From the NCBI GenBank assembly GCA_025056175.1, contig JANWWK010000034.1, forward strand, positions 1 through 47,011: a DNA stretch of 47,011 nt, written 5' to 3'. This document shows positions 9,212 through 32,647 of this stretch, piece by piece. The notes under the pieces were generated by a model. The model saw only the letters and a list, made by a program, of their open reading frames with translations. It made no database searches and had not been told where the DNA came from. Position 1 is the stretch's first letter; each line of letters opens with the position of its first letter. Both the position numbers and the translations under genes were made by a program. The DNA comes from Anaerolineales bacterium. Its GTDB lineage: Bacteria; Chloroflexota; Anaerolineae; Anaerolineales; Villigracilaceae.

Positions 9212-10855
9212 GTGTCATCCGCATCTCCTCCGCTTTTGTCTCGCCTTTTCCTTCTGCTCCTGCTCCTGCTTGCCCTGTTTGCCGGGTGGTCGGTGTGGTA
9301 CGCCACCCCTGCCGGCCTGGGGCTGACCAACGACTCCGCTGCTTATCTCGGAGGCGCGCGTTCGATTCTGGCTGGAACGGGGTATAGTGACATCTGGCTC
9401 GACAGCACCCTGGAAGCAATTACACACTACCCGCCGCTGCTCTCGCTGACCTTAAGCCTGCTGAGCCGGCTCAGCGGCCTGGACCCCTACCGCACCGCCC
9501 GCGTTCTGCACATCTTGCTGTTTTCTGCCAACACCGTCCTGATGGGATGGCTGGGTTGGCGTCTGAGCGCTTCCCAAACCTGGGGACGTTTGGGCATTGC
9601 ACTGTTTCCGGCCTTTCTATTTGCCACCAACGCCGACCTGCTACGCATCCATGCCCAGGTATTGAGCGAACCACTCTTCCTGTTTTTCTCCCTGCTGGCA
9701 TTTCTGACATTCGATGTTGCCCTGCAACGTTCGCCCAACCCGGCTTTTGGCTCACCCCTAACAGCACCTGCTTCGCCAATCAACGCTCACCGCTCCTTGA
9801 TTACGGATTACGGCTTATGGACAACCGGCTTTCTCACTGGCCTGGCCTTTCTGACCCGCTATTCGGGCCTGGCGCTCATCGCCACCTTCCTGATAGCAAT
9901 TTTCCTGCTTAGCCCCACTCTGCGTCGAAAACAAACACTGCTTTTTCTGGCTGGGGTCATTCCGCCGGTGGCAGGCTGGTTGCTGCGCAACGCCCTTGTG
10001 GCCGATTCCGTCACCAACCGCACCGTTCACTTCAACCCTATCGAACTTTCCAACATTCGCACCGGCCTGTGGAACGTGGCACACTTTCTCTCCCCCCTGC
10101 CCGGTCTGGCAGAATGGCTGTTTGGGAGCGGTCTGTTACAGATTTTGCTCATCCTCTTCGGAGTAGGCCTGCTAGGCTGGTTAAGCCATCGCGCATGGAT
10201 GGCGCGTCAAGACACCAGCGCCCTCGCCTTCACAACGGCGCTCTACGTCTTCGGCTATCTCGGCGCGGTGTTGTTCTCCATGAGCTTCTTTGATGCCAGC
10301 ACCAAATTTCAACCGCGCATCCTTGCGCCGCTCTACGTTTCATGGATGCTCTTGCTCACCGCGGGGCTGAGCGCGCTTATCGGCCAAAACCACCTGCGGC
10401 TTGCCCTTGCAGGAGCGCTGACCCTGATGGCGGTTGTCTTTTCTGGCTTCGGCATATCGCGGGAAATCACCTCTTTGCGCGCAATGGACGGTTTAGGCTA
10501 TGCTTCGTGGCGCTGGCGTCAGGCCGAAGTGATGGCCTATTTGCGCCGTCTACCGCCAGAGATTGCCATCTACACCAATTCGCCACCCGCGGTTTATCAC
10601 GTCACCGGACGCGCCAGCCGCGTCATCCCCAGCACGCTTGACCCCGTCAGCGGCCTGCCGCGCAGAGACTATGAGCAAACACTGGCCGAAATGCGCGCCG
10701 AACTGCTCGCCGGGCGCGCCGTGCTGGCCTTGTTCGAGGTTTCAAGCCTGGAAGAAGCCTTTGGCGAGCAAGTTGCGTTACAATTCAAAGGCCTTCCCCT
10801 GCTTCTCAAAGCGCAGGGGCATGTGCTGTATGGAAACGTGGAGATAAACAAATGA
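9212..10855 (+). CDS. GT-C fold membrane glycosyltransferase (GT39/ArnT-like)
   Basis: 547 residues from a GTG start (no good Shine-Dalgarno; the next ATG would remove the first membrane helix). A first transmembrane helix (SRLFLLLLLLLALFAGWSVWY) is followed by an extracytoplasmic loop with LTNDSAAYLGGARSILAGTGY, the place where GT-C enzymes carry their catalytic acidic residue. Many further hydrophobic helices and a C-terminal soluble segment follow. GT39/ArnT/PMT-type enzymes transfer sugars from polyprenyl-linked donors outside the membrane. The stop overlaps the ATG of the SDR gene (ATGA), placing it in the nonulosonate operon. Residues around 173-205 look like a translated copy of an intergenic repeat (see findings). 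Exact substrate unknown. Confidence 0.75.
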   Translation: MSSASPPLLSRLFLLLLLLLALFAGWSVWYATPAGLGLTNDSAAYLGGARSILAGTGYSDIWLDSTLEAITHYPPLLSLTLSLLSRLSGLDPYRTARVLHILLFSANTVLMGWLGWRLSASQTWGRLGIALFPAFLFATNADLLRIHAQVLSEPLFLFFSLLAFLTFDVALQRSPNPAFGSPLTAPASPINAHRSLITDYGLWTTGFLTGLAFLTRYSGLALIATFLIAIFLLSPTLRRKQTLLFLAGVIPPVAGWLLRNALVADSVTNRTVHFNPIELSNIRTGLWNVAHFLSPLPGLAEWLFGSGLLQILLILFGVGLLGWLSHRAWMARQDTSALAFTTALYVFGYLGAVLFSMSFFDASTKFQPRILAPLYVSWMLLLTAGLSALIGQNHLRLALAGALTLMAVVFSGFGISREITSLRAMDGLGYASWRWRQAEVMAYLRRLPPEIAIYTNSPPAVYHVTGRASRVIPSTLDPVSGLPRRDYEQTLAEMRAELLAGRAVLALFEVSSLEEAFGEQVALQFKGLPLLLKAQGHVLYGNVEINK

Positions 10856-22623: not shown

Positions 22624-24687
22624 TTACGCTGTAAGCGCAGGCAGGGTAAGGATGAACCTGGCGCCATGGTCGGGGGCATCTTCGACCCAAATTTTTCCAC
22701 CGTGCGCCTGCACGGCCAGTTTGCAAAACGCCAACCCGACGCCTAAACCACGTGCGCCGGTTTTGCTCTTCAAGCGCGTAAATTTATCGAAAATACGTTC
22801 ACGGTCGGCTTCGGGAATGCCGGGACCATTATCTTGCACATAGATTTGCACAAAGCCTTCTTCGGAAGCCGGCTGCGCGCCAAGGACGATGCGCCCCTCC
22901 ACAGGGGTATATTTGGCAGCGTTTTCGAGCAGGTTGATAAGCACACGGCGAATCATATCGGCATCCACATCCAGTTCGGGCAGGCCAGCTTCCACACAAA
23001 TTTCGGCGCGCTGGTTGCGCCCTTCCAACGCCGGGCGCGTCATGTCCAGCACATCCTCCAGGAGAGTCTGGACAGCGAGCGCCTGCCGGTCGGTGATGGG
23101 TTGGTTCTGTTCCAGGCGGTTGATATCGAGCAAGGAATTGATGAGCCGTTCGATACGTGCAATAGAGTGCCGGGCAATTTTCAGGAAGGGAGCGGCGCTT
23201 TCCTGTTCTGCTTCGGGGATGCTGGCAGCGAGCATTTCCACACTCGATAAGATGTTGCCCAATGGTGAACGCAGGTCATGGTAAATCATGGCCGAGAGGT
23301 CTTCGCGCAGGGCATCCAGTTCTTTTCGTTCGCGGATGTCGCGCAGAATCCACTGCAAGGCTTCCTGTCCATCGAAGGTGACTTTGCGCACATGGACACT
23401 GACCGGATAGGTTGTTCCCTGCTGGCTGTAAAGCGTGGATTCATAGTGAATGGTCGCTTCGCCGATTTTCTCAAAGGCCATGCCAGTTTTATCGAAGTTG
23501 ATGTCGTGCATTTGTCCTATCAGGAAACGTTTGAGGTCCTCAACAGGATGGCCAGAGAAACGCTCGGCCTGGTGGTTGGCTTCCAGGATTTTGCCTTCCA
23601 AATCGGTGATGACGATAGGGTCAATGCTGTCATCGAACAAATCACGGTAGCGTTTGCGGGCAAGGTCGAGCCGCTGGAAGAGTTCACCATTCTGAATGGC
23701 TGTACCGGCCAGTGACCCAAGCCCGGTTAAGACCAGCAGCGAATCGGGGTCAAAAGCGCGGTTGATGGGGTTGAACGCCTCCAGGACACCGATGACCCGC
23801 CCCTGAAAATGGATGGGAGCACAGGCCAGCGCACGCACGAAAACACCGGGGATTTTTTCCGCACCGGAAAGCAGCGTTTCCGAAACGATGGCAGGGATGA
23901 CCACGCCGCGCGCTTCGCGCGCCACCAGACCGGCAATTCCTTCCCCCATTTTGACGCGCCGCGCAATCACTCCTTCGCTGCGCGGTCCGGTAGCAGCACG
24001 AAAGACCAGTTCTTCACCATCGAGCAAGGCCAGAGCGGCAATTTCTACCTGAAGCGCCTGTTTAACCTGCGCCAGGATGGCCTGAAAGATGTCCTCCATC
24101 CGCACCGACATCGTCAGGCTGGCAGCGCCTTCGGCCAGCACGGTCATCACCCGCGCCTGGCGCTGACTTTCGGAGAACAGGCGGGCATTCAGGACAGCGA
24201 TACCGGCCTGGTCGGCAATTGCCTGCATCAGTTCCAGATGTTCGGTATCAAAAAAGTGGGGAACGGGATGGACGACCGTCAGTACACCAACAATTTTCTC
24301 GCGCGCCATCAGGGGCGCGCAAATGGCGGCTTTCGCCCCGGAGCGGTCGAGGGCATCGTCTTCGCGCCGCAGCCAGCGTTCGTCTTTGCTGGTATCTGGC
24401 ACCAGCACGGCCTGCCGCTTACGTGCCACCCAGCCAGCCAGACCACGCTCCATCGTATCGCGCAGCTGCAAGGTGGTGCCTTCACGCAGTTGATTGCCGT
24501 ACACAATAGCCGAATCAACGGCACGGCCATTGTCATCCATGACGATAATCGAAGCACGCTCACCGCCTACGTTGTTCAGTGCCGCAAACAGGACGCGCGT
24601 CAGCACGGTACGCAAATCGAGCGCAGAAGCAAATTCCCGGCTGACTTTATAAAGCAGTTCCAGTACGGCGCGCTGGTCCTGAGCCAT
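22624..24687 (-). CDS. Cytoplasmic hybrid-sensor histidine kinase: GAF-GAF-PAS-HisKA-HATPase
   Basis: 687 residues without membrane helices. GAF 1 (about 20-170), GAF 2 (about 190-335), a PAS domain (about 345-455, DSIDPIVITDLEGKILEANHQAERFSGHPVED split across its core), the phospho-acceptor His470 in MIYHDLRSPLGNILS, and an ATPase domain with NLLENAAKYTP, DNGPGIP and GLGVGLAFCK. It probably senses small ligands or redox state in the cytoplasm. No response regulator is adjacent. GGAG lies 11 bases before the start, and an extended -10 promoter separates it from the upstream cyclase gene. Confidence 0.93.
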   Translation of the reverse strand: MAQDQRAVLELLYKVSREFASALDLRTVLTRVLFAALNNVGGERASIIVMDDNGRAVDSAIVYGNQLREGTTLQLRDTMERGLAGWVARKRQAVLVPDTSKDERWLRREDDALDRSGAKAAICAPLMAREKIVGVLTVVHPVPHFFDTEHLELMQAIADQAGIAVLNARLFSESQRQARVMTVLAEGAASLTMSVRMEDIFQAILAQVKQALQVEIAALALLDGEELVFRAATGPRSEGVIARRVKMGEGIAGLVAREARGVVIPAIVSETLLSGAEKIPGVFVRALACAPIHFQGRVIGVLEAFNPINRAFDPDSLLVLTGLGSLAGTAIQNGELFQRLDLARKRYRDLFDDSIDPIVITDLEGKILEANHQAERFSGHPVEDLKRFLIGQMHDINFDKTGMAFEKIGEATIHYESTLYSQQGTTYPVSVHVRKVTFDGQEALQWILRDIRERKELDALREDLSAMIYHDLRSPLGNILSSVEMLAASIPEAEQESAAPFLKIARHSIARIERLINSLLDINRLEQNQPITDRQALAVQTLLEDVLDMTRPALEGRNQRAEICVEAGLPELDVDADMIRRVLINLLENAAKYTPVEGRIVLGAQPASEEGFVQIYVQDNGPGIPEADRERIFDKFTRLKSKTGARGLGVGLAFCKLAVQAHGGKIWVEDAPDHGARFILTLPALTA

Positions 24688-24804: not shown

Positions 24805-25926
24805 TCAATTTTGGAAATCGTTCTGTTTGGATTCACTCCCCTGCCCTGATGCTGGCTCATCCTCCTTCAGGTGCAGCAACTCATGCGCCTGAATTGCTTC
24901 CATCCTGCCACGCAAAGAGACCGCCCCCAGTGGAAATGAGGACACGCGCTCTCCAAGCAGATGGAGGGTATCCTGCGTGAGCAACACCTGACCAGCCTTT
25001 GCATGACCGGAGAGCCGCGCCGTCACATTGACCACATCCCCAATAGCGGTGTATTCCAGGCGATTTTCGTAGCCCAGGTAGCCGACCACTGCCCAGCCAG
25101 AATGAATGGCTACGCCAAAATCTACCACAAACGGCATTCCGTTGCGCGGTGACTTGTACAGGCGACGCAGGCTGTCTTGAAGTTCCAGCCCGGCGCGCGC
25201 GGCCCGCAAGGCATGGTCGGGGAGTTCGCGTGGGGCATTGAAGACCGCCAACAGTGAGTCGCCAGCAAAGTTGGTGATGACGCCACCCTCGGATTCGATG
25301 ACCTGACCAATCAACGCGAAGTGCTGGTTGAGCAATTCCAAAAGCGTTTCAGGAGCAAGGGCCTCGCTCAGCGGAGTAAAACCGCGCATATCGGCAAACA
25401 AGGCGGTAATAAAGCGTTTCTCGCCGCCAGTTCTCACCTGGCGGGGGTTGGAAATCATCTGGTCAGCCACCGGGCTGGGGACGAAACGATGCAACAAGTC
25501 ATCCAATTCGGCGCGAGAGCGCGCCAGTTGACTGCTGAGCAAATCCAATTCATTACGTTGTTGGGTCACACGCTGTTCGAGCAGGGCTTCTTCGGTTACA
25601 TCCACCAGCAAAATCAGCAACCCCTGCTGGTAAGGGTAGATGCGAAACGAAACATAACGGCGGGCATGGTGCGAATCTTCAAATTCAATTTTTTCGATGG
25701 CAAACTGGGGAAGTTCTCCCTGTGCCACCTGGCGCAAATCTGCCTCCATGCCGCTCAATAAATCGAACAATCGCTCAACCGGCTGGGCGCGCACGGGGCC
25801 GGAAATGCGCCGCGCATAGCGAATAATGCCGGGACTGTATTCAACCACCCGCAGCGCCGAATCGCACACCACGTATTCGAGTTTTTGATGTTTGAAAATT
25901 TCCTGCATCAGCGAAGAGCCATTCAT
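24805..25926 (-). CDS. Class III adenylate/guanylate cyclase with N-terminal PAS-like domain
   Basis: 373 residues from the ATG at 25926, which has GAGGGAA upstream; earlier in-frame ATGs overlap the diguanylate cyclase and lack a site. Residues about 15-115 form a PAS-like domain, followed by a short coiled coil and the catalytic domain (about 168-325). Metal-binding Asp179 (ALFADMRGFT) and Asp223 (FAGDSLLAVF) are present, as are Asp297, Asn300 and Arg304 (YTAIGDVVNVTARL). The base-selecting lysine of adenylate cyclases is Asn219 here, so ATP versus GTP use is unclear. The N-terminal domain is homologous to that of the adjacent diguanylate cyclase. Last gene of the GTPase operon, 37 bases after it. 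Confidence 0.92.
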   Translation of the reverse strand: MNGSSLMQEIFKHQKLEYVVCDSALRVVEYSPGIIRYARRISGPVRAQPVERLFDLLSGMEADLRQVAQGELPQFAIEKIEFEDSHHARRYVSFRIYPYQQGLLILLVDVTEEALLEQRVTQQRNELDLLSSQLARSRAELDDLLHRFVPSPVADQMISNPRQVRTGGEKRFITALFADMRGFTPLSEALAPETLLELLNQHFALIGQVIESEGGVITNFAGDSLLAVFNAPRELPDHALRAARAGLELQDSLRRLYKSPRNGMPFVVDFGVAIHSGWAVVGYLGYENRLEYTAIGDVVNVTARLSGHAKAGQVLLTQDTLHLLGERVSSFPLGAVSLRGRMEAIQAHELLHLKEDEPASGQGSESKQNDFQN

Positions 25927-25963
25927 CGTTCCCTCGTTCTCGGGCATTGATTCTGCCGGTGCA

Positions 25964-26911
25964 TTAGGGGGCTTCTTCCAGACAAATACGGTTCTTTCCT
26001 TCGCGCTTGGCGCGATACAATGCAGCATCGGCCCGGGCGAGCAACGCCTGGGGGGTATATGCCTGCGGCGATTGCCCGGAAACACTGAAAATGCCAAGCG
26101 AAATTGTCAGGCGCAGGTTGGCAGGACGGGTGATTTCTGCCAGATTGCGTTGAATGCGGGCTGCCAAAGCATGTGCCTGATGAGACTCGGTCATTGGCAG
26201 GCAAATGCAAAATTCATCCCCAGCGTAGCGGGCAACAAAATCGCTATTGCGTATGGAGGTTCTTAACACCGAAGCCAGAATGCGCAGGGCGTCATCTCCT
26301 TCAAGATGACCGTAAAGGTCATTGACGGCTTTGAATTCGTCAATATCGAGCATGATGAGCGAAAAGGGTGTGCCGGTGCGGCGGGCAGTCTCGACATAGC
26401 GCGTGAGTTGCTCATCGAGATAACGGCGGTTGGGCAGGCCAGTCAGGGCATCGAACAGTGCCATGCGATGCAGTTCGGCATTGGCCCGGTCTAACTCCCG
26501 GCGCAAGAGTTCAAGCTCGTTTCGGGCTTGCACGGCGCGCTGCTCCAAACGAGCCGCCGGGCTGACATCCTCAACGAGCAAAAACAAGCCTCCTTCGTCT
26601 CCCCAATTCTTCCACACGTGAAAGGTAAGAAAGCGAGCCTCTGCGCCCGATTCATCATTCACGTATTCCAGCAGATATTCTGGCAGAGACCCCTGCATCA
26701 CCTCGCGCAAGACCGATTCGCTGCCTATCAAGGCTTCGCAGAGTTTGGGCAGCAGCGTACCTTCCAGCGGTTCAGCGCGATGAAAGAATGCCTGGAAATT
26801 GCAGGAAGTCTCCACCACGCGCAGGGAGTCATCTACACGTGCGTAAGCCAGTTTGTTCTTTGAGAGCAAAATATCAAGAATGGTTTGCGAAAGCGTGGTT
26901 GCAGATTTCAC
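25964..26911 (-). CDS. Diguanylate cyclase (GGDEF) with N-terminal PAS-like domain
   Basis: 315 residues if translation starts at the GTG at 26911, four bases after the GTPase stop. Upstream in-frame ATGs overlap the GTPase gene, and the GTG start makes the N terminus match the neighbouring cyclase in length. The PAS-like domain (about 15-120) and coiled coil are followed by FDALTGLPNRRYLDEQL, LIMLDIDEFKAVNDLYGH, and RYAGDEFCI, a tolerated AGDEF variant. RNSD five residues before it fits the RxxD inhibitory site. It would make c-di-GMP under product feedback. Start codon uncertain. Confidence 0.9.
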   Translation of the reverse strand: MKSATTLSQTILDILLSKNKLAYARVDDSLRVVETSCNFQAFFHRAEPLEGTLLPKLCEALIGSESVLREVMQGSLPEYLLEYVNDESGAEARFLTFHVWKNWGDEGGLFLLVEDVSPAARLEQRAVQARNELELLRRELDRANAELHRMALFDALTGLPNRRYLDEQLTRYVETARRTGTPFSLIMLDIDEFKAVNDLYGHLEGDDALRILASVLRTSIRNSDFVARYAGDEFCICLPMTESHQAHALAARIQRNLAEITRPANLRLTISLGIFSVSGQSPQAYTPQALLARADAALYRAKREGKNRICLEEAP

Positions 26912-26915
26912 GCCA

Positions 26916-27455
26916 TCAATCTCGTTGGTGTAGTTGCACTGCCAGGCGGTAGAAGATGTCTTCGACATTGTGTCCCGTTTTTGCGCTGGTGAGAAAGGCC
27001 TGTCCGCCAAACTGTTGGGCGGCGGCCTGAAGCTGGTCATCGCTAATGGCGCGCAGGTCGGTCAAATCCACTTTGTTACCTACGAACACAACCGGAATGG
27101 ACAACCCCACTGTCTGTATCTGCTCGACGTAACGATGAAAGCCGGTAAGCGTTTCAGGGCGTGTCAGGTCGCACACAATCAGCGCGCCGGCAGCACCGCG
27201 CAGATAATTGGCACGAATCTGACCGTTGAACTCATCGCTTCCGGCCAGGTCCCACAAAAGCAGGTTGATGCGTCCATGTGGTAATTCCACAGACTTTCGA
27301 CTGATTTTGACCCCAATCGTGCTGAGGTAACGGTCATCGAAGCGCCCTTCTACGAAACGGCGCACCAGGCTGGTTTTGCCAACGGCAAATTCGCCCAGGA
27401 GGCAAACTTTTTTCTGAATGGTGGTGAGGGAAATTTCGGAAGAAGGCGGGGGCAT
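26916..27455 (-). CDS. Ras/Rab-like small GTPase
   Basis: 179 residues. All G motifs are present: P-loop GEFAVGKTS (21-29), switch I STIGVKI with Thr46, switch II WDLAGSDEF (68-76), NKVD (127-130) and SAK (157-159). The catalytic glutamine of Ras/Rab (DTAGQE) is Ser73 here, so hydrolysis probably needs a partner. There is no C-terminal cysteine for lipidation. It lies between genes for a membrane-anchored coiled-coil/SH3 protein and a diguanylate cyclase, in one tight operon. It is likely a molecular switch coupling the membrane protein to second-messenger synthesis (inference). Shine-Dalgarno weak; start chosen at the first ATG after the upstream stop. Confidence 0.93.
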   Translation of the reverse strand: MPPPSSEISLTTIQKKVCLLGEFAVGKTSLVRRFVEGRFDDRYLSTIGVKISRKSVELPHGRINLLLWDLAGSDEFNGQIRANYLRGAAGALIVCDLTRPETLTGFHRYVEQIQTVGLSIPVVFVGNKVDLTDLRAISDDQLQAAAQQFGGQAFLTSAKTGHNVEDIFYRLAVQLHQRD

Positions 27456-27478
27456 CGGTTGGTCATCTTTTCGGTCGG

Positions 27479-28954
27479 TCAGGGGACAGCCAGCCAAATC
27501 GCGGGAAGCCATCCGCTGACAGTTTGCCCATCGGCTTGTCGCCAGGAAACCAGCACCCAGTCTCCTCGCCGGTCCAACACCGTGAGCGGGATTTCGGGAG
27601 TAAGGGCGGTAAATGGCGGCTGGGTTTCATCGGGCTGGCTGCGTACCCACACACTGCCACGTGTGTATGCATAGTTCGGCTCTGGCGTAGCCGATGGAGT
27701 GAGAGTGGGCGTGAACGAAGGGGTTGGCGAGGGCGTAACAGTGGGCGCAGGCGTGAGGGTGGCCGTTGGCGAAGGTGTGAACGCAGGGGAAGGGGTGAGA
27801 GTCGCTGTGGGCAACACGGTTGGTGTGGAAGATGGCGGAAAAGCCACCGGCAAGAGCGCAATGGTGAAACGCGCGTAGAAGACCACCAGCGCCAGGCAGG
27901 CCAGGCTGGTCAGAATTCCCACCGCCAATACGCTTTTCTGGGCGCGCGTCAGGGGACGGGGGCGATGCGTTTGCGTCTCGGTCGTCTGAATGCTCTGCAG
28001 AGCCGGGAGCAGGTTAGGCAGTTGGGATGAATCTCCATCGAAGCCGCGCAGCAGGTCGCCAAAGCGTACATGCAATTCCGAGACAAATTCGCGCAAGCGC
28101 GCACGGAAACCTTCTGGCTCGACGCCAATGATGACCACAGCCAGATAAGCCGCCGCCCCGGTCACCAGGATAATGCGCTGATTGCCGTATTGGATTTCAT
28201 CCAGTTCTTCGCTTTCATTGCCCTTGCCATACGCATCACGCACAAAGTCGCGGATAGCGGTCAACATGCCGCTGACCAGGTCAGCATCGGCGGCCTGCGC
28301 CTGGTCAGGATGGCTGTGCGCCATCAGCAAACCCGTTTCGCGGTGAACCAGAAACAGTTCACGCACCTCGAAGGGCAAAGCCTGGCGCAGGGTCAACTGG
28401 GCAGGCGGCACCCCGCGCAAACGCGCCCAGAGCAATTGCAGGGTATCTCGCAGACCAAAGGTAGATTTGAGACGCGCATCGATGTTTTGTTGCAGCTCAC
28501 GGGCAAATTCGGACAATGCCTTTTGTACCGTGCTGCCAATGATGGGATAGAGTGCGTCTATCATCTCCTGACGCGAATCACGGATTTGAACACGAATAGC
28601 CTCGCCCATGACCGGCCCAAGCGCCTCGGCCATTTCATCGCGCGATTCGCGGATGGATTTCTTTATCATCCCGCTGATGGCAGGCGTCAGACGGCGCACC
28701 AGCCCGTCCAGGTCTTCTTGCACCTGCCGCAGGGTTTCAATCTCCCCGCCGAGTTCCTGGCGCGCAGCTTGCAAAGCGCGGCTGAGCGCCTGCGATTCCT
28801 GTCGCAAGGCTTCCATCTGCTCCAGGGCGCGCTGACGGAAGGCCTCGGCTTGTTCTTCGAGTAGCGCAATCCGCTCGCGTTCGCGGGAAAACAAAATCGT
28901 CTGGATAGACTCCAGTTCGTTGCGCGGAGCGGTTGGGGGCGGCAAATCGGTCAT
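27479..28954 (-). CDS. Membrane-anchored coiled-coil protein with extracytoplasmic SH3-type domain
   Basis: 491 residues. N-terminal motif NELESIQTILFSRERERI, coiled coil (about 25-90), repeated helical elements (MIKKSIRESRDEM, then IRVQIRDSRQEMIDALYPIIG), and an alpha/beta domain (about 195-305; VRELFLVHRETGLLMAHSHP, then ADLVSGMLTAIRDFVRDAYG) related to a domain seen in proteobacterial and cyanobacterial OmpA-type proteins. One transmembrane helix (341-360) is followed by a Thr/Pro-rich linker (about 375-426) and a bacterial SH3 domain (430-490). The topology suggests a cytoplasmic N-terminal part and an external SH3 domain. The alpha/beta domain looks roadblock/longin-like, which would fit a GTPase partner (inference). 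It lies 6 bases downstream of the coiled-coil gene. Confidence 0.82.
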   Translation of the reverse strand: MTDLPPPTAPRNELESIQTILFSRERERIALLEEQAEAFRQRALEQMEALRQESQALSRALQAARQELGGEIETLRQVQEDLDGLVRRLTPAISGMIKKSIRESRDEMAEALGPVMGEAIRVQIRDSRQEMIDALYPIIGSTVQKALSEFARELQQNIDARLKSTFGLRDTLQLLWARLRGVPPAQLTLRQALPFEVRELFLVHRETGLLMAHSHPDQAQAADADLVSGMLTAIRDFVRDAYGKGNESEELDEIQYGNQRIILVTGAAAYLAVVIIGVEPEGFRARLREFVSELHVRFGDLLRGFDGDSSQLPNLLPALQSIQTTETQTHRPRPLTRAQKSVLAVGILTSLACLALVVFYARFTIALLPVAFPPSSTPTVLPTATLTPSPAFTPSPTATLTPAPTVTPSPTPSFTPTLTPSATPEPNYAYTRGSVWVRSQPDETQPPFTALTPEIPLTVLDRRGDWVLVSWRQADGQTVSGWLPAIWLAVP

Positions 28955-28960
28955 GCCAGG

Positions 28961-29410
28961 TCAATCGGCAGGGTGATTCTCGGTCCATGCCTGCCCAAGC
29001 GCGCTTACCATTTGCCCCATGTGGGCGCGCCAGGCCTGAATTTCGGCGCGGAAATCGGCGGTTTCTTGCTGTAAGGCAGCACGAGCCTGCTCCAGCGCAT
29101 GCGTCTGTTGCGCCGATTCCTGTTCCAGCCGTTCGGTGAGATGCCCTACCTGGCTTTTCAAGTCGGCAGATTGCTGGGTTTGCAAAGCAAGCAGACGTTC
29201 ATCGAAGCGTTTGTTGAGCGAGTCGAGCCGTTTTTCCAGCTCTTCGACTTCATGGTCAATACGGCGATTCATCTCCATTGTATTGCGCGTAATGCGCTGT
29301 TCGATTTCATCTAACCTGCTTTCGATAGAACGAACGCGCTCGCCGTACAAAATGTCACGCAGGCGCTCCAGTTCGTTTGCTTCGGATGAAGAAGATGGTT
29401 GCTTTGCCAT
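28961..29410 (-). CDS. Small coiled-coil protein of the GTPase operon
   Basis: 149 residues, hydrophilic. The N-terminal motif NELERLRDILYGERVRSI matches the N terminus of the next protein in the operon (NELESIQTILFSRERERI). The rest is a long heptad-rich coiled coil (SRLDEIEQRITRNTMEMNRR onward). No enzyme motif. It is the first gene of the operon, so it may recruit or regulate the membrane protein through the shared motif. Its family has no function I can name. Confidence 0.75.
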   Translation of the reverse strand: MAKQPSSSSEANELERLRDILYGERVRSIESRLDEIEQRITRNTMEMNRRIDHEVEELEKRLDSLNKRFDERLLALQTQQSADLKSQVGHLTERLEQESAQQTHALEQARAALQQETADFRAEIQAWRAHMGQMVSALGQAWTENHPAD

Positions 29411-29692: not shown

Positions 29693-29965
29693 ATGCCCAC
29701 CATTCGCGTCCCAGCTTTGCTGAAATACTATCTGAACGGTCAGACGGAAGTGGCCGTGAGCGGACAAACCGTTGCCGAAGTGCTGGCAGACCTGACCCGC
29801 CAGTATCCGGCCATTCAGCCGCACGTGTTCGATAGCAGCGGACGGGTGCGCCGCCACGTCAACCTGTTCGTCAATACCGAGAACATTCGCGTCCTGAACG
29901 GTCTGGAAACGGACGTGAAGGAAGAGGATGTCATCAAAATTTTGCCCTCGGTGACGGGCGGATAA
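29693..29965 (+). CDS. CysO/MoaD-like sulfur-carrier protein
   Basis: 90 residues with a beta-grasp fold pattern and the C-terminal Gly-Gly needed for thiocarboxylate formation (ILPSVTGG). Length and internal motifs (VPALLKYYLNGQTEVAVSG, VNLFVNTENIRVLNGLETDV) resemble mycobacterial CysO more than MoaD or ThiS. Its partner MoeZ-type activating enzyme follows 67 bases downstream and a beta-replacement PLP enzyme after that. It is probably the sulfide carrier for cysteine or another sulfur transfer. No molybdopterin or thiamine genes are nearby. Confidence 0.88.
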   Translation: MPTIRVPALLKYYLNGQTEVAVSGQTVAEVLADLTRQYPAIQPHVFDSSGRVRRHVNLFVNTENIRVLNGLETDVKEEDVIKILPSVTGG

Positions 29966-30032
29966 GGGAACGGATTGGACAACGGAGAAAGCGAAGAAAC
30001 GGATTCTGCTCACTGATAACTGGATATCGACT

Positions 30033-31181
30033 ATGGAGCTGACCCGCGAAGAAATTCTGCGCTACTCGCGCCATCTGCTCATCCCCGAAGTGGGACTGAA
30101 CGGACAGCGCAAACTCAAAGAATCCTCGGTTCTGGTCATCGGCACCGGCGGCCTCGGCTCGCCGGTCTCGCTCTACCTGGCAGCAGCCGGCGTTGGGCGC
30201 ATTGGGCTGGTAGATTACGACGTGGTGGATTCGACCAACCTTCAGCGGCAGGTGGTTCACGGCACCTCTACGGTCGGCAAATTGAAGGTCGAGAGCGCCC
30301 GCGCCCGCCTGCTCGACTTGAATCCGATGATTCAGGTGGATGTTTACAACGTGCCGTTCACCTCGGCGAATGCCCTGGAGATTGCCGCGCCTTACGATGT
30401 CATCGTGGATGGCACGGATAACTTCCCCACCCGTTATTTGAGCAATGACGTGGCCGTCTTTTTGGGCAAACCCAACGTATACGGTTCGATTTTCCGCTTC
30501 GATGGGCAGGCCAGCGTGTTCTACGCCCAAAAAGGGCCGTGTTACCGCTGTCTGTTCCCGGAACCGCCCCCGCCCGGCCTGGTGCCAACTTGCGCCGAAG
30601 GCGGCGTGTTGGGCATTTTGCCCGGCACCATCGGCACCATTCAGGCCACTGAAGCACTCAAACTGCTGCTCGGTATCGGTGATACGCTCATCGGGCGATT
30701 GTTGCTATACAACGCGCTCGATATGTCGTTCGACTTTGTCAACCTGCGGAAGAACCCAAAATGCCGGGTGTGCGGGCCGGAAGCAGATATAAAAGAACTG
30801 ATTGACTACGAAGAATTTTGCGGCGTGCCAGGCCACGACCACGAAAGCGGCTCGGCCGGGGCCGATTGGGATATTTCCGCGCCGGAACTGGCCGCCCGCT
30901 TACAGAGTGCCAACCCACCCCTGTTACTAGATGTGCGCGAACCGCACGAGTTGCAGATTTCCTGGCTGCCGGGCGCGCTCAACATTCCGCTGGGGATGCT
31001 GGCGGCACGCCTTTCCGAACTGGATTCGGCGCGGGAGATGGTCGTCTTGTGCAAGGCCGGCACCCGTTCGGCACGCGCACTTGAACTGCTGGTCAGCGCC
31101 GGCTTCCGGCGCGTCAAAAACCTGAAAGGCGGCATCAACGCCTGGGCGCGGGAGGTAGACCAGAATTTGCCAGTGTATTAG
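30033..31181 (+). CDS. MoeB/MoeZ-type sulfur-carrier adenylyltransferase with rhodanese domain
   Basis: 382 residues. The E1-like domain has the ATP loop GTGGLGSP (37-44), Asp61/Asp63 in VDYDVVD, zinc ligands C170xxC173 and C244xxC247, and Cys187 in VPTCAEGG. The C-terminal rhodanese domain (about 283-378) has the persulfide cysteine Cys340 in VVLCKAGTRSARAL. It adenylates the Gly-Gly end of the carrier and supplies sulfur through the rhodanese persulfide. It is adjacent to the CysO-like carrier, its expected substrate. No Shine-Dalgarno; a GATAACTG repeat precedes the ATG by about 10 bases. Confidence 0.93.
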   Translation: MELTREEILRYSRHLLIPEVGLNGQRKLKESSVLVIGTGGLGSPVSLYLAAAGVGRIGLVDYDVVDSTNLQRQVVHGTSTVGKLKVESARARLLDLNPMIQVDVYNVPFTSANALEIAAPYDVIVDGTDNFPTRYLSNDVAVFLGKPNVYGSIFRFDGQASVFYAQKGPCYRCLFPEPPPPGLVPTCAEGGVLGILPGTIGTIQATEALKLLLGIGDTLIGRLLLYNALDMSFDFVNLRKNPKCRVCGPEADIKELIDYEEFCGVPGHDHESGSAGADWDISAPELAARLQSANPPLLLDVREPHELQISWLPGALNIPLGMLAARLSELDSAREMVVLCKAGTRSARALELLVSAGFRRVKNLKGGINAWAREVDQNLPVY

Positions 31182-31234
31182 AGATTTAACGTTGTTTCGA
31201 CTTTTTCAAATATCCCTTACCTGGAGGAGACAGA

Positions 31235-32647
31235 ATGACCACCTTAAAGGTATCCCACGAAAAGCGGGTATACGACAACATCCTGGGTGCTATCGGCAAC
31301 ACGCCGCTCGTGCGGCTAACACGCATTGCGCCGCATCTTTCTGCTGCGCTGTATGCCAAACTGGAGTTTTTAAACCCCGGTGGTTCGGTGAAAGACCGGG
31401 TCGGTCTCAACATCGTTGAACAAGCCGAACGACGCGGTGAACTGCGCCCCGGCGGAACGATTGTGGAAGCCACCAGCGGCAACACCGGGGTTGGACTGGC
31501 AATTGCCGCCGCACTCAAAGGCTATAAAACCATCTTCGTTATGCCCGATAAAATGTCGAACGAGAAAATTCAGCTGCTACGCGCCTATGGGGCAAAGGTC
31601 GTCATCACACCCACGGCGGTTGCACCCGAAGACCCGCGTTCGTATTACGAAGTCGCCAAACGCTTTGCGCGCGAAATCCCCAACGCCATCCTGGCGAATC
31701 AATATCACAACCCCGATAACCCCCAAACCCACGAAATGACGACCGGCCCAGAGATATGGGAGCAAACCGAAGGACGGGTGACAGATGTCGTTATCGGCAT
31801 GGGGACGGGAGGGACTATCAGCGGGGTAGGACGCTATCTCAAGGCCAGAAATCCCAATATCCGCATTGCAGGCGTAGATATCGAAGGTTCGATTTTGCTG
31901 GAAATCTGGAAGAACAAGGGCAAAATCCCCGAAGGGGCTTACCCCAAAACCTACAAAGTAGAAGGAATCGGTGAAGACTTTCTGCCCTCGGCTACCGACC
32001 TGAGCGTGGTAGATGACATCGTGCGGGTCAACGACAAAGAATGTTTCTTATGGGCACGCGCTTTGGTGCGCCAGGAAGGCATTTTCGCCGGCGGCTCCAG
32101 TGGGGCGGCGCTGGCAGGGGCGCTCAAATATGCCGCCCGCTTGCCCGCCGACCGGCTGGTGGTCGTTATCTTTCCTGATAGCGGCTCTCGCTACCTCTCC
32201 AAATTCTACGATAACAAATGGATGCGCGAAAACGGCTTCCTCGGCACCGAGTTCGGCGAGGTGACCCTGGGCGACCTGCTGATGGCAAAACCCAACAAGA
32301 CGCTCTACACCGCCACGCTGGGCGATTCGATGCGCAAAGTGATGAATCTGATGCGCCAGCACGCCATTTCGCAGGTCCCGGTGGTCGGCGCCGATGGCAC
32401 ACTGGCTGGCACGCTCGACGAGGTGGATTTGCTCAATCACCTGCTCGAAAGCCACGAACACAGCCACGATGAACCCATTGACGACCTGGTGCAAAACGCA
32501 CAGGCCACTTATCCGGCAGAAACCACGCTGGATGAAGCCATGCCCATGCTTGCCAACGGTTTCGCGCTGATTGTCATCGAAAACAGCAAGCCAATTGGCA
32601 TCCTGACCAAAATAGACGTGCTGGACTACGTGGCCGGGAAAATCTGA
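31235..32647 (+). CDS. Cystathionine beta-synthase / cysteine synthase with CBS domain pair
   Basis: 470 residues. The catalytic part (about 12-330) has the PLP lysine Lys53 in GGSVKDRVGLNI, the substrate loop EATSGNTGVGLA, GMGTGGTISGVGR, VEGIGEDFLP and the IFAGGSSGAA phosphate region. The C-terminal part (about 335-470) is a tandem CBS pair separated by a His-rich linker (ESHEHSHDEP). It could make cystathionine from serine and homocysteine, or cysteine from an activated serine. Beside a CysO-like carrier, use of carrier thiocarboxylate is possible (inference). GGAGGAG lies just before the ATG. Confidence 0.92.
   Translation: MTTLKVSHEKRVYDNILGAIGNTPLVRLTRIAPHLSAALYAKLEFLNPGGSVKDRVGLNIVEQAERRGELRPGGTIVEATSGNTGVGLAIAAALKGYKTIFVMPDKMSNEKIQLLRAYGAKVVITPTAVAPEDPRSYYEVAKRFAREIPNAILANQYHNPDNPQTHEMTTGPEIWEQTEGRVTDVVIGMGTGGTISGVGRYLKARNPNIRIAGVDIEGSILLEIWKNKGKIPEGAYPKTYKVEGIGEDFLPSATDLSVVDDIVRVNDKECFLWARALVRQEGIFAGGSSGAALAGALKYAARLPADRLVVVIFPDSGSRYLSKFYDNKWMRENGFLGTEFGEVTLGDLLMAKPNKTLYTATLGDSMRKVMNLMRQHAISQVPVVGADGTLAGTLDEVDLLNHLLESHEHSHDEPIDDLVQNAQATYPAETTLDEAMPMLANGFALIVIENSKPIGILTKIDVLDYVAGKI

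Follow-up and report, generated by a model that had tools for sequence, protein, structure and literature searches.

The prokaryotic small GTPases closest to the eukaryotic Rab, Ran, Ras and Rho families are the Group 1 Rup proteins (PMC4316618, PMC4915359), which lack the glutamine of the G3 motif and whose hosts include Chloroflexi (Wuichet & Sogaard-Andersen, PMC4316618). According to the same account, their gene-neighbors encode a coiled-coil protein, a DUF protein that often combines a transmembrane (TM) helix with an OmpA domain, and an output protein with an invariant glutamine in its N-terminal region (PMC4316618). This glutamine is speculated to act in trans, and the output proteins are typically either histidine kinases or fusions of DGC and PDE domains (PMC4316618). 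No Group 1 Rup member had been characterised as of 2014 (PMC4316618), and a literature search recovered no later study of these proteins. MglA, a distant relative of Rup that acts in polarity, lacks the G3 aspartate, and in the actinobacterial conservons (CvnA-D) CvnD belongs to the MglA family and CvnB is an MglB homologue, with no N-terminal output domain of the kind that we term the plug below being described for them in the account of signal transduction there (PMC4316618). On the side of the GTPase partners, longins are held to derive from MglB-like domains, the longin and roadblock folds being related (PMC3521125). 'Longin/Roadblock' is tabulated as present in bacteria (PMC4917890), and hence a bacterial longin-like fold is not in itself new. 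Longins have also been described in Asgard archaea, where the GTPase genes generally do not lie in operons with longin genes (PMC10933270).

We analysed a stretch of 47,011 nucleotides (hereafter the window) that constitutes contig C69 (JANWWK010000034.1) of an Anaerolineales bacterium, whose assembly amounts to 3.57 Mb in 95 contigs. Judged by gene context and motifs, it appears to contain a Group 1 Rup system with two output enzymes. The operon consists of five ORFs on the reverse strand (24805-29410; all features given below lie on this strand), and the gaps of 6, 23, 4 and 37 bases read from the sequence match the tight packing proposed by the first-pass annotation. It is headed by gene 1 (28961-29410), an ORF with homologues that encodes a cytoplasmic coiled-coil protein of 149 residues, followed by gene 2 (27479-28954, start at 28954) for a 491-residue membrane protein, gene 3 (26916-27455, ATG start at 27455) for a small GTPase of apparent Group 1 Rup type, gene 4 (25964-26911, GTG start at 26911) for a 315-residue plug-GGDEF protein that is a probable diguanylate cyclase, and gene 5 (24805-25926, ATG start at 25926) for a 373-residue plug-class III cyclase. 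Matches to the Pfam models Ras (gene 3; E = 1.6e-38), GGDEF (gene 4; 1.3e-47) and Guanylate_cyc (gene 5; 2.3e-20) bear out the identities earlier given to these three products. A histidine kinase gene further downstream (22624-24687) was considered as a sixth member and rejected: it lacks the plug and is absent after the cyclase of another locus (L096, see below), where the gene in that position is, on our own reading of its name, presumably unrelated to it. We place this kinase outside the system, yet its co-transcription with the operon is possible. Promoter scans at the locus gave matches at chance level.

The GTPase is 179 or 198 residues long, depending on whether translation begins at 27455 or at an in-frame upstream ATG at 27512; the latter start would overlap gene 2. 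At either length it stays within the 240 residues of a small GTPase, and its G1-G5 motifs resemble those of Ras and Rab. A sequence search of the PDB recovered 672 matches with an E-value of 1e-8 or better, and the best 60 of these 672 are nearly all Rabs, headed by Rab6 (2e-30), making Rabs the nearest solved relatives. The G3 motif in the window reads DLAG-S, without the glutamine. This is a property of the whole group: all 94 aligned GTPases possess the G3 aspartate and none the glutamine, the residue following DxxG being serine in 44, glycine in 43 and another residue in the remaining 7.

The gene 2 product comprises, from N- to C-terminus, a helical region, a longin-like domain, one TM helix, a proline/threonine-rich linker and an SH3-like C-terminus, as delineated from Pfam searches, a structural model and hydropathy. 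The first-pass annotation had suspected a roadblock/longin-like domain at residues 195-305, and structure prediction now points to a longin domain at residues 193-303 (28046-28378). The AlphaFold2 model (m49dd8cc75ca2), built from the 20 sequences of alignment A1 and described as the context from residue 238 onward, has a pLDDT of 78.3 and a pTM of 0.52, with blocks from residue 121 on ranging from 68 to 94. It displays a helical stretch and then the succession alpha, two strands, alpha, three strands, alpha. In a comparison with PDB structures, the second half of the model, roughly residues 193-303, was closest to Sec22b (Z = 12.7; rmsd 2.8 over 121 aligned residues), followed by Vamp7 (12.1), Fuzzy-Inturned with Rab23 (12.0), Ykt6 (11.6), TRAPP with Ypt1 (11.0) and Mon1-Ccz1 with Ypt7 (10.6), with the roadblock protein Ego3 scoring lower (9.8). 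Foldseek placed MglB (3t1s) at rank 11. The predicted fold is thus not one unrelated to GTPase partners. At the sequence level, the DUF profile retrieved no longin from the PDB, only three weak helical matches, and a Pfam scan of the five operon proteins gave no roadblock or longin match. A shared fold alone shows no function: the top matches also include proteins that are not GEFs, namely Sec22b, Ykt6 and adaptor subunits. The TM helix is predicted from hydropathy at residues 341-368 (27851-27934), and the same test is passed by 96 of the 99 family members whose sequences are not truncated at the end of a contig. The SH3-like domain (27503-27646), predicted to lie outside the membrane, is weak: SH3_3 scores 25.8 bits on the whole protein and 27.5 bits on the isolated C-terminal part, against a cut-off of 27. 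When 60 of the 96 homologues were scanned their C-termini yielded SH3_3 (34), SH3_4 (6), OmpA (4) and BON (3) domains, and OmpA also occurs on the homologue from Mesorhizobium.

The N-terminal regions of the two output enzymes are related to each other, with 36% identity over 140 residues and an E-value of 2e-24 in a one-sequence comparison. They constitute a single family, the plug, predicted to combine a PAS domain with a helix, the latter bearing a Q-x3-Q motif. In the AlphaFold2 model (pLDDT 94.3) a PAS fold is followed by a long helix at the C-terminus, and PAS domains rank top when the model is compared with PDB structures. The plug spans 26462-26878 in gene 4, with its conserved glutamine at residue 128 (alignment A3 and model), and 25495-25908 in gene 5, with the equivalent glutamine at residue 122 (family alignment). 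Among 110 unique plugs with a residue at the respective position, the first glutamine is found in 97 and the second in 105; the five without the second all belong to histidine kinases, make up a deep branch of their own in the tree and may not be true plugs. A stricter motif, which 85 of the 111 plug ORFs contain and none of 7,367 other unique ORFs from the same loci, was written after the plugs had been seen and serves as a description, not as an independent test. In all, 111 copies of the plug occur at 90 of the 107 loci surveyed below, fused to histidine kinases (73), another kinase type (2), class III cyclases (17), GGDEF domains (6), HD-GYP domains (4), sigma-54 activators (3, the output at the KSB1 and Calditrichia loci) and a PP2C phosphatase (1), with five copies lacking any recognised output; we count seven kinds of C-terminal part, including the plugs with none recognised.

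To place the operon in its wider context, we collected the loci that contain the DUF region of gene 2. It is present in 5 of 41 genomes (the window's own and 40 relatives), including 2 of the 11 in the genus with its own counted, and in 49 of 249 genomes of the class, one of these matches being marginal. A collection of named genomes had the region at 331 places, from which the best 80 were kept, biasing this set toward relatives of the window. Together with the window the survey covers 134 DUF-holding stretches, amounting to 107 distinct loci with near-identical strains counted apart. Homologues of gene 1 occur at 101 of these, as recovered by coiled-coil profiles that are permissive. The order coiled-coil, DUF, GTPase, plug runs consecutively on one strand at 59 of the 107, indicating an arrangement beyond chance, and at 11 others the GTPase gene lies upstream of the coiled-coil gene, giving GTPase, coiled-coil, DUF, plug; the rest are rearranged, split, divergent or cut by contig ends. 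Of the 66 loci with flanks of no less than 2 kb on the upstream and 2.5 kb on the downstream side, 60 had both GTPase and plug, five neither and one the GTPase alone. At one locus (L108) a GTPase was found without a plug among the scanned ORFs, the next ORF lying outside the scan.

The two genes also keep company genome-wide. A close GTPase is encoded in 51 of the 249 class genomes, all 51 of which possess a plug, as against 3 (G154, G198 and G207) of the other 198 (Fisher p = 6e-50, uncorrected for kinship). The cut for a close GTPase (E < 1e-50) was chosen with the scores in view, which drop from 185 to 126 bits with nothing between; a looser cut of 1e-20 gives 73 matching genomes, 52 of them with a plug. 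The DUF accompanies the GTPase in 47 of the 51, leaving four GTPase genomes without a DUF match and two DUF genomes without the GTPase. Certain loci combine the coiled-coil and DUF genes with a plain kinase, and joint loss of GTPase and plug was considered for them and rejected: in G074, G106 and G152 the DUF locus lacks the GTPase, which adjoins the plug elsewhere in the genome. In these three genomes the operon is therefore split, and GTPase and plug move as a pair; similar loci L130, L134 and L137 fell outside the genome-wide search. Among 72,556 plasmids, four records contain both DUF and GTPase (Nostoc, two of Rhizobium and Mesorhizobium). Three of the four were inspected. At the Nostoc locus the output is a kinase bearing a clear plug, and in Mesorhizobium WSM1497 and Rhizobium 007 a coiled-coil protein, an OmpA protein and a 'Rab family GTPase' are accompanied by a class III cyclase whose match to the plug is weak; thus, pairing of this GTPase with a cyclase is not confined to the window. 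The plugs from Nostoc, Mesorhizobium and Rhizobium all retain Q-x3-Q, but not the RNE that follows it.

The window's GGDEF protein has an AGDEF active site and an RxxD I-site, the corresponding sites being GGDEF in L096 and GGEEF in L093. Its cyclase retains both metal-binding aspartates, the asparagine and the arginine, with asparagine at the position of the substrate-specifying lysine; we take these roles to be those assigned to class III cyclases at large. Across the 17 plug-cyclases both aspartates and the asparagine are invariant and the arginine is present in 15, and the lysine position is occupied by lysine in seven, glutamine in seven, asparagine in two (the window and L096) and glutamate in one. 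The conserved catalytic residues of gene 5 thus make nucleotide cyclase activity likely. In view of the AGDEF site and the non-canonical substrate residues (Asn, Thr), neither GGDEF nor cyclase activity is certain. The same genome encodes 3 PilZ and 11 cNMP-binding domains, which could act as readers of the messengers.

Two or more plug genes occur at 19 of the 90 plug-bearing loci, and the pairing of GGDEF with cyclase is rare among them, being confined to three of the 107 loci: the window, L096 and the rearranged L101. In L096, from Anaerolineae CG2_30_57_67, DUF, GTPase, GGDEF and cyclase genes follow the order of the window, which is thus not restricted to the window's genome; the L096 contig begins inside the DUF gene, so that gene 1 would lie beyond the contig start. 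Other two-output loci combine a histidine kinase with one cyclase (five) or with two (one). In a plug tree, which rests on few alignment columns, the plug of the window's GGDEF protein clusters with its counterparts in L096 and L093, the latter deposited as Anaerolinea sp. (support 100/86), and the plug of the window's cyclase with the cyclase plug of L096 (100/95), beside the second-slot cyclase plugs of the kinase-cyclase operons with moderate support (84/63, 86/81). These placements imply that the window's plugs represent two distinct lineages of greater age and did not arise by a fresh duplication, and the gene order suggests an exchange of kinase and GGDEF in the first slot.

From the observed gene order, homologies, shared plug, co-occurrence and missing G3 glutamine, together with the predicted longin and PAS folds, we propose a general flow from the GTPase to the enzymes with the longin protein as regulator. 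We give this reading an even chance, as every interaction and direction in it is inferred, and co-occurrence and operon structure give no direction of signal. The coiled-coil and membrane proteins would make up a membrane-tethered platform, perhaps linked through SH3 to the cell wall as well. The longin domain, probably as a dimer, would bind the GTPase and set its nucleotide state, in a GEF-like or, less likely, a GAP-like manner. The GTP-bound GTPase would then bind the PAS-plus-helix plug at the front of either enzyme, GGDEF protein and class III cyclase alike, altering the pairing of the signalling helices and with it enzyme activity. The conserved helix glutamine may in addition stand in for the one missing from the GTPase active site, so coupling output to switch-off; we hold this detail to be less likely than the general flow. 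The first-pass annotation had envisaged an external signal read by the SH3 protein and passed through the GTPase to two messengers, and had set the module beside MglA/MglB; the longin-like fold of the partner and the plug that is common to both enzymes and co-occurs with the GTPase lend part of this interpretation support, and the parallel with MglA/MglB did not hold.

A fuller form of this scheme, which we consider rather unlikely, would be a complete bacterial Rab-like circuit, with a membrane-anchored longin GEF, a Rab-like GTPase and a PAS-helix plug serving as both effector and glutamine-lending GAP. One switch would thereby drive, and be timed by, any plug-bearing enzyme, and here c-di-GMP and a cyclic mononucleotide would be set together. 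If true, bacteria would possess a signalling counterpart to the partnership of longins and Rabs in eukaryotic trafficking. It is unlikely, too, that the system serves localisation, with the GTPase recruiting plug enzymes of unchanged activity to a membrane site marked by the longin/SH3 protein, such as a pole or wall contact, where messengers would be made locally. Direct fusion of a PAS domain and signalling helix to a catalytic domain is the architecture usually seen in allosteric control, and docking alone would not need it; on the other hand, the near-universal TM helix (96 of 99), the wall-binding type of the outside domains, the joining of plugs to very different enzymes along with five stand-alone copies, as a docking domain would predict, and the role of the distantly related MglA in polarity (PMC4316618) all favor such a function. 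Still less probable is a reverse flow, in which the PAS plugs sense a ligand or partner of their own and the enzymes, as GAPs or effectors, set the GTPase, whose true output would be the cell envelope and the complex of coiled-coil and membrane proteins. Ligand binding is common among PAS domains, as this reading would have it. It would also accommodate the conserved plug glutamine opposite a GTPase without its own, a complementarity noted previously (PMC4316618), but the C-terminal parts (histidine kinase, GGDEF, cyclase, HD-GYP, sigma-54 activator and PP2C) are typical signalling outputs and form the variable part of the system, the GTPase and membrane parts being constant. That the cyclase output is degenerate or outside GTPase control, leaving a single working branch, is very unlikely: the substituted substrate lysine (Asn in the window and L096, Gln in 7 of 17) and the AGDEF site speak for it, and against it stand the metal-binding and transition-state residues kept across the plug-cyclases, the glutamine retained in the window's cyclase plug and the recurrence of cyclase outputs in Mesorhizobium and Rhizobium.

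Returning to the flow from GTPase to enzymes, the predicted folds of two hitherto unknown domains, along with the identity and spread of the plug, make a loosely framed hypothesis accessible to simple tests, namely whether the plug binds the GTP-bound GTPase, whether it is a GAP and whether the longin protein is a GEF. The two-enzyme version is a natural internal control, offering a single switch with two measurable products.

Among known systems, the yeast Ras-adenylate cyclase pathway likewise pairs a Ras-like GTPase with a class III cyclase, and with its different proteins it offers an analogy only. The eukaryotic Rabs with their longin GEFs (Mon1-Ccz1, Fuzzy-Inturned and TRAPP) share with the window a Rab-nearest GTPase and what is predicted to be a longin-like partner, but the bacterial partner has no sequence match to any longin and the GTPase lacks the G3 glutamine. 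The conservons similarly unite a signalling enzyme with a small GTPase and a protein of roadblock type in an operon, whereas CvnD is of the MglA family and the window GTPase of apparent Rup type. With MglA/MglB the locus has in common a bacterial small GTPase and a partner of the roadblock/longin fold group. Unlike that pair, it has the G3 aspartate throughout and no roadblock sequence match in the partner, and membership is ruled out by this aspartate and by the lack of a linked roadblock gene, the three Robl_LC7 matches in the genome lying on contigs C65, C7 and C59 and none on C69. The earlier comparison with MglA/MglB is superseded for the further reason that Rup is a separate family whose four-gene core was already described in 2014 (PMC4316618).

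It is the Group 1 Rup systems that the operon resembles most, in the G3 aspartate without glutamine, the coiled-coil protein, the DUF-TM protein with a wall-type domain and the output with an N-terminal glutamine. The link runs through the homologous operons of Nostoc and Mesorhizobium, which are named in that study, and of Rhizobium, which is not. Gln 128 and Gln 122 of the window fit the invariant glutamine, being equated with it by description and not from the published logo. Differences lie in the SH3-like domain in place of OmpA and in the doubled output, of which one member is a GGDEF protein and the other a class III cyclase; cyclases are outside the typical outputs given in the text of the paper, and its supplementary tables may list some (PMC4316618). 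The DUF and the output N-terminal region, unknown domains there (PMC4316618), are here predicted to be longin and PAS. Thus, the kind of system is one already known as Group 1 Rup, to which the present analysis adds the fold predictions, the shared plug, the spread of this plug and a version with two messengers.

The plug, i.e. the N-terminal predicted PAS domain and Q-x3-Q helix common to the two output enzymes of the GTPase operon, also occurs in a diverged version lacking the second glutamine of the helix, which was found in five histidine kinases (loci L012, L117, L121, L125 and L127); in the plug tree these kinase plugs constitute a separate deep branch. At several other surveyed loci (L049/L129, L050, L051/L128, L130, L134 and L137) the genes for the coiled-coil protein and the DUF of predicted longin fold adjoin a kinase without a plug, and in the three genomes with such loci that were searched the GTPase and plug were located elsewhere in the genome. 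Within the window, the cyclase gene is followed after 117 bases by a co-oriented gene for a GAF-GAF-PAS histidine kinase (22624-24687, minus strand), and a search of this kinase for a plug domain recovered none.

Plug domains of 143-166 residues also stand alone beside the GTPase operon at L141, L144 (both at about 9914-10411), L140 and L094, with no output domain recognized in them; these could function as competitors or adaptors. Away from the GTPase operon, plug-like domains are seen within open frames of 1,068 to 1,711 residues in genomes G237, G198 and G257. The GTPase domain itself lies in unusually long open frames at L081 (498 residues) and L010/L093 (391 residues), which may be no true fusions because these lengths are stop-to-stop.

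Divergent to the GTPase operon, a plus-strand group (29693-32647) codes for a ubiquitin-like sulfur carrier of the SAMP1/MoaD type (NF041918, cut-off 60 bits, score 64.5), a MoeZ-like adenylyltransferase that carries a rhodanese domain, and a third protein which, from our reading of the ORF, we take to resemble a cysteine synthase with CBS domains. Together these genes perhaps specify a protein-thiocarboxylate route to cysteine.
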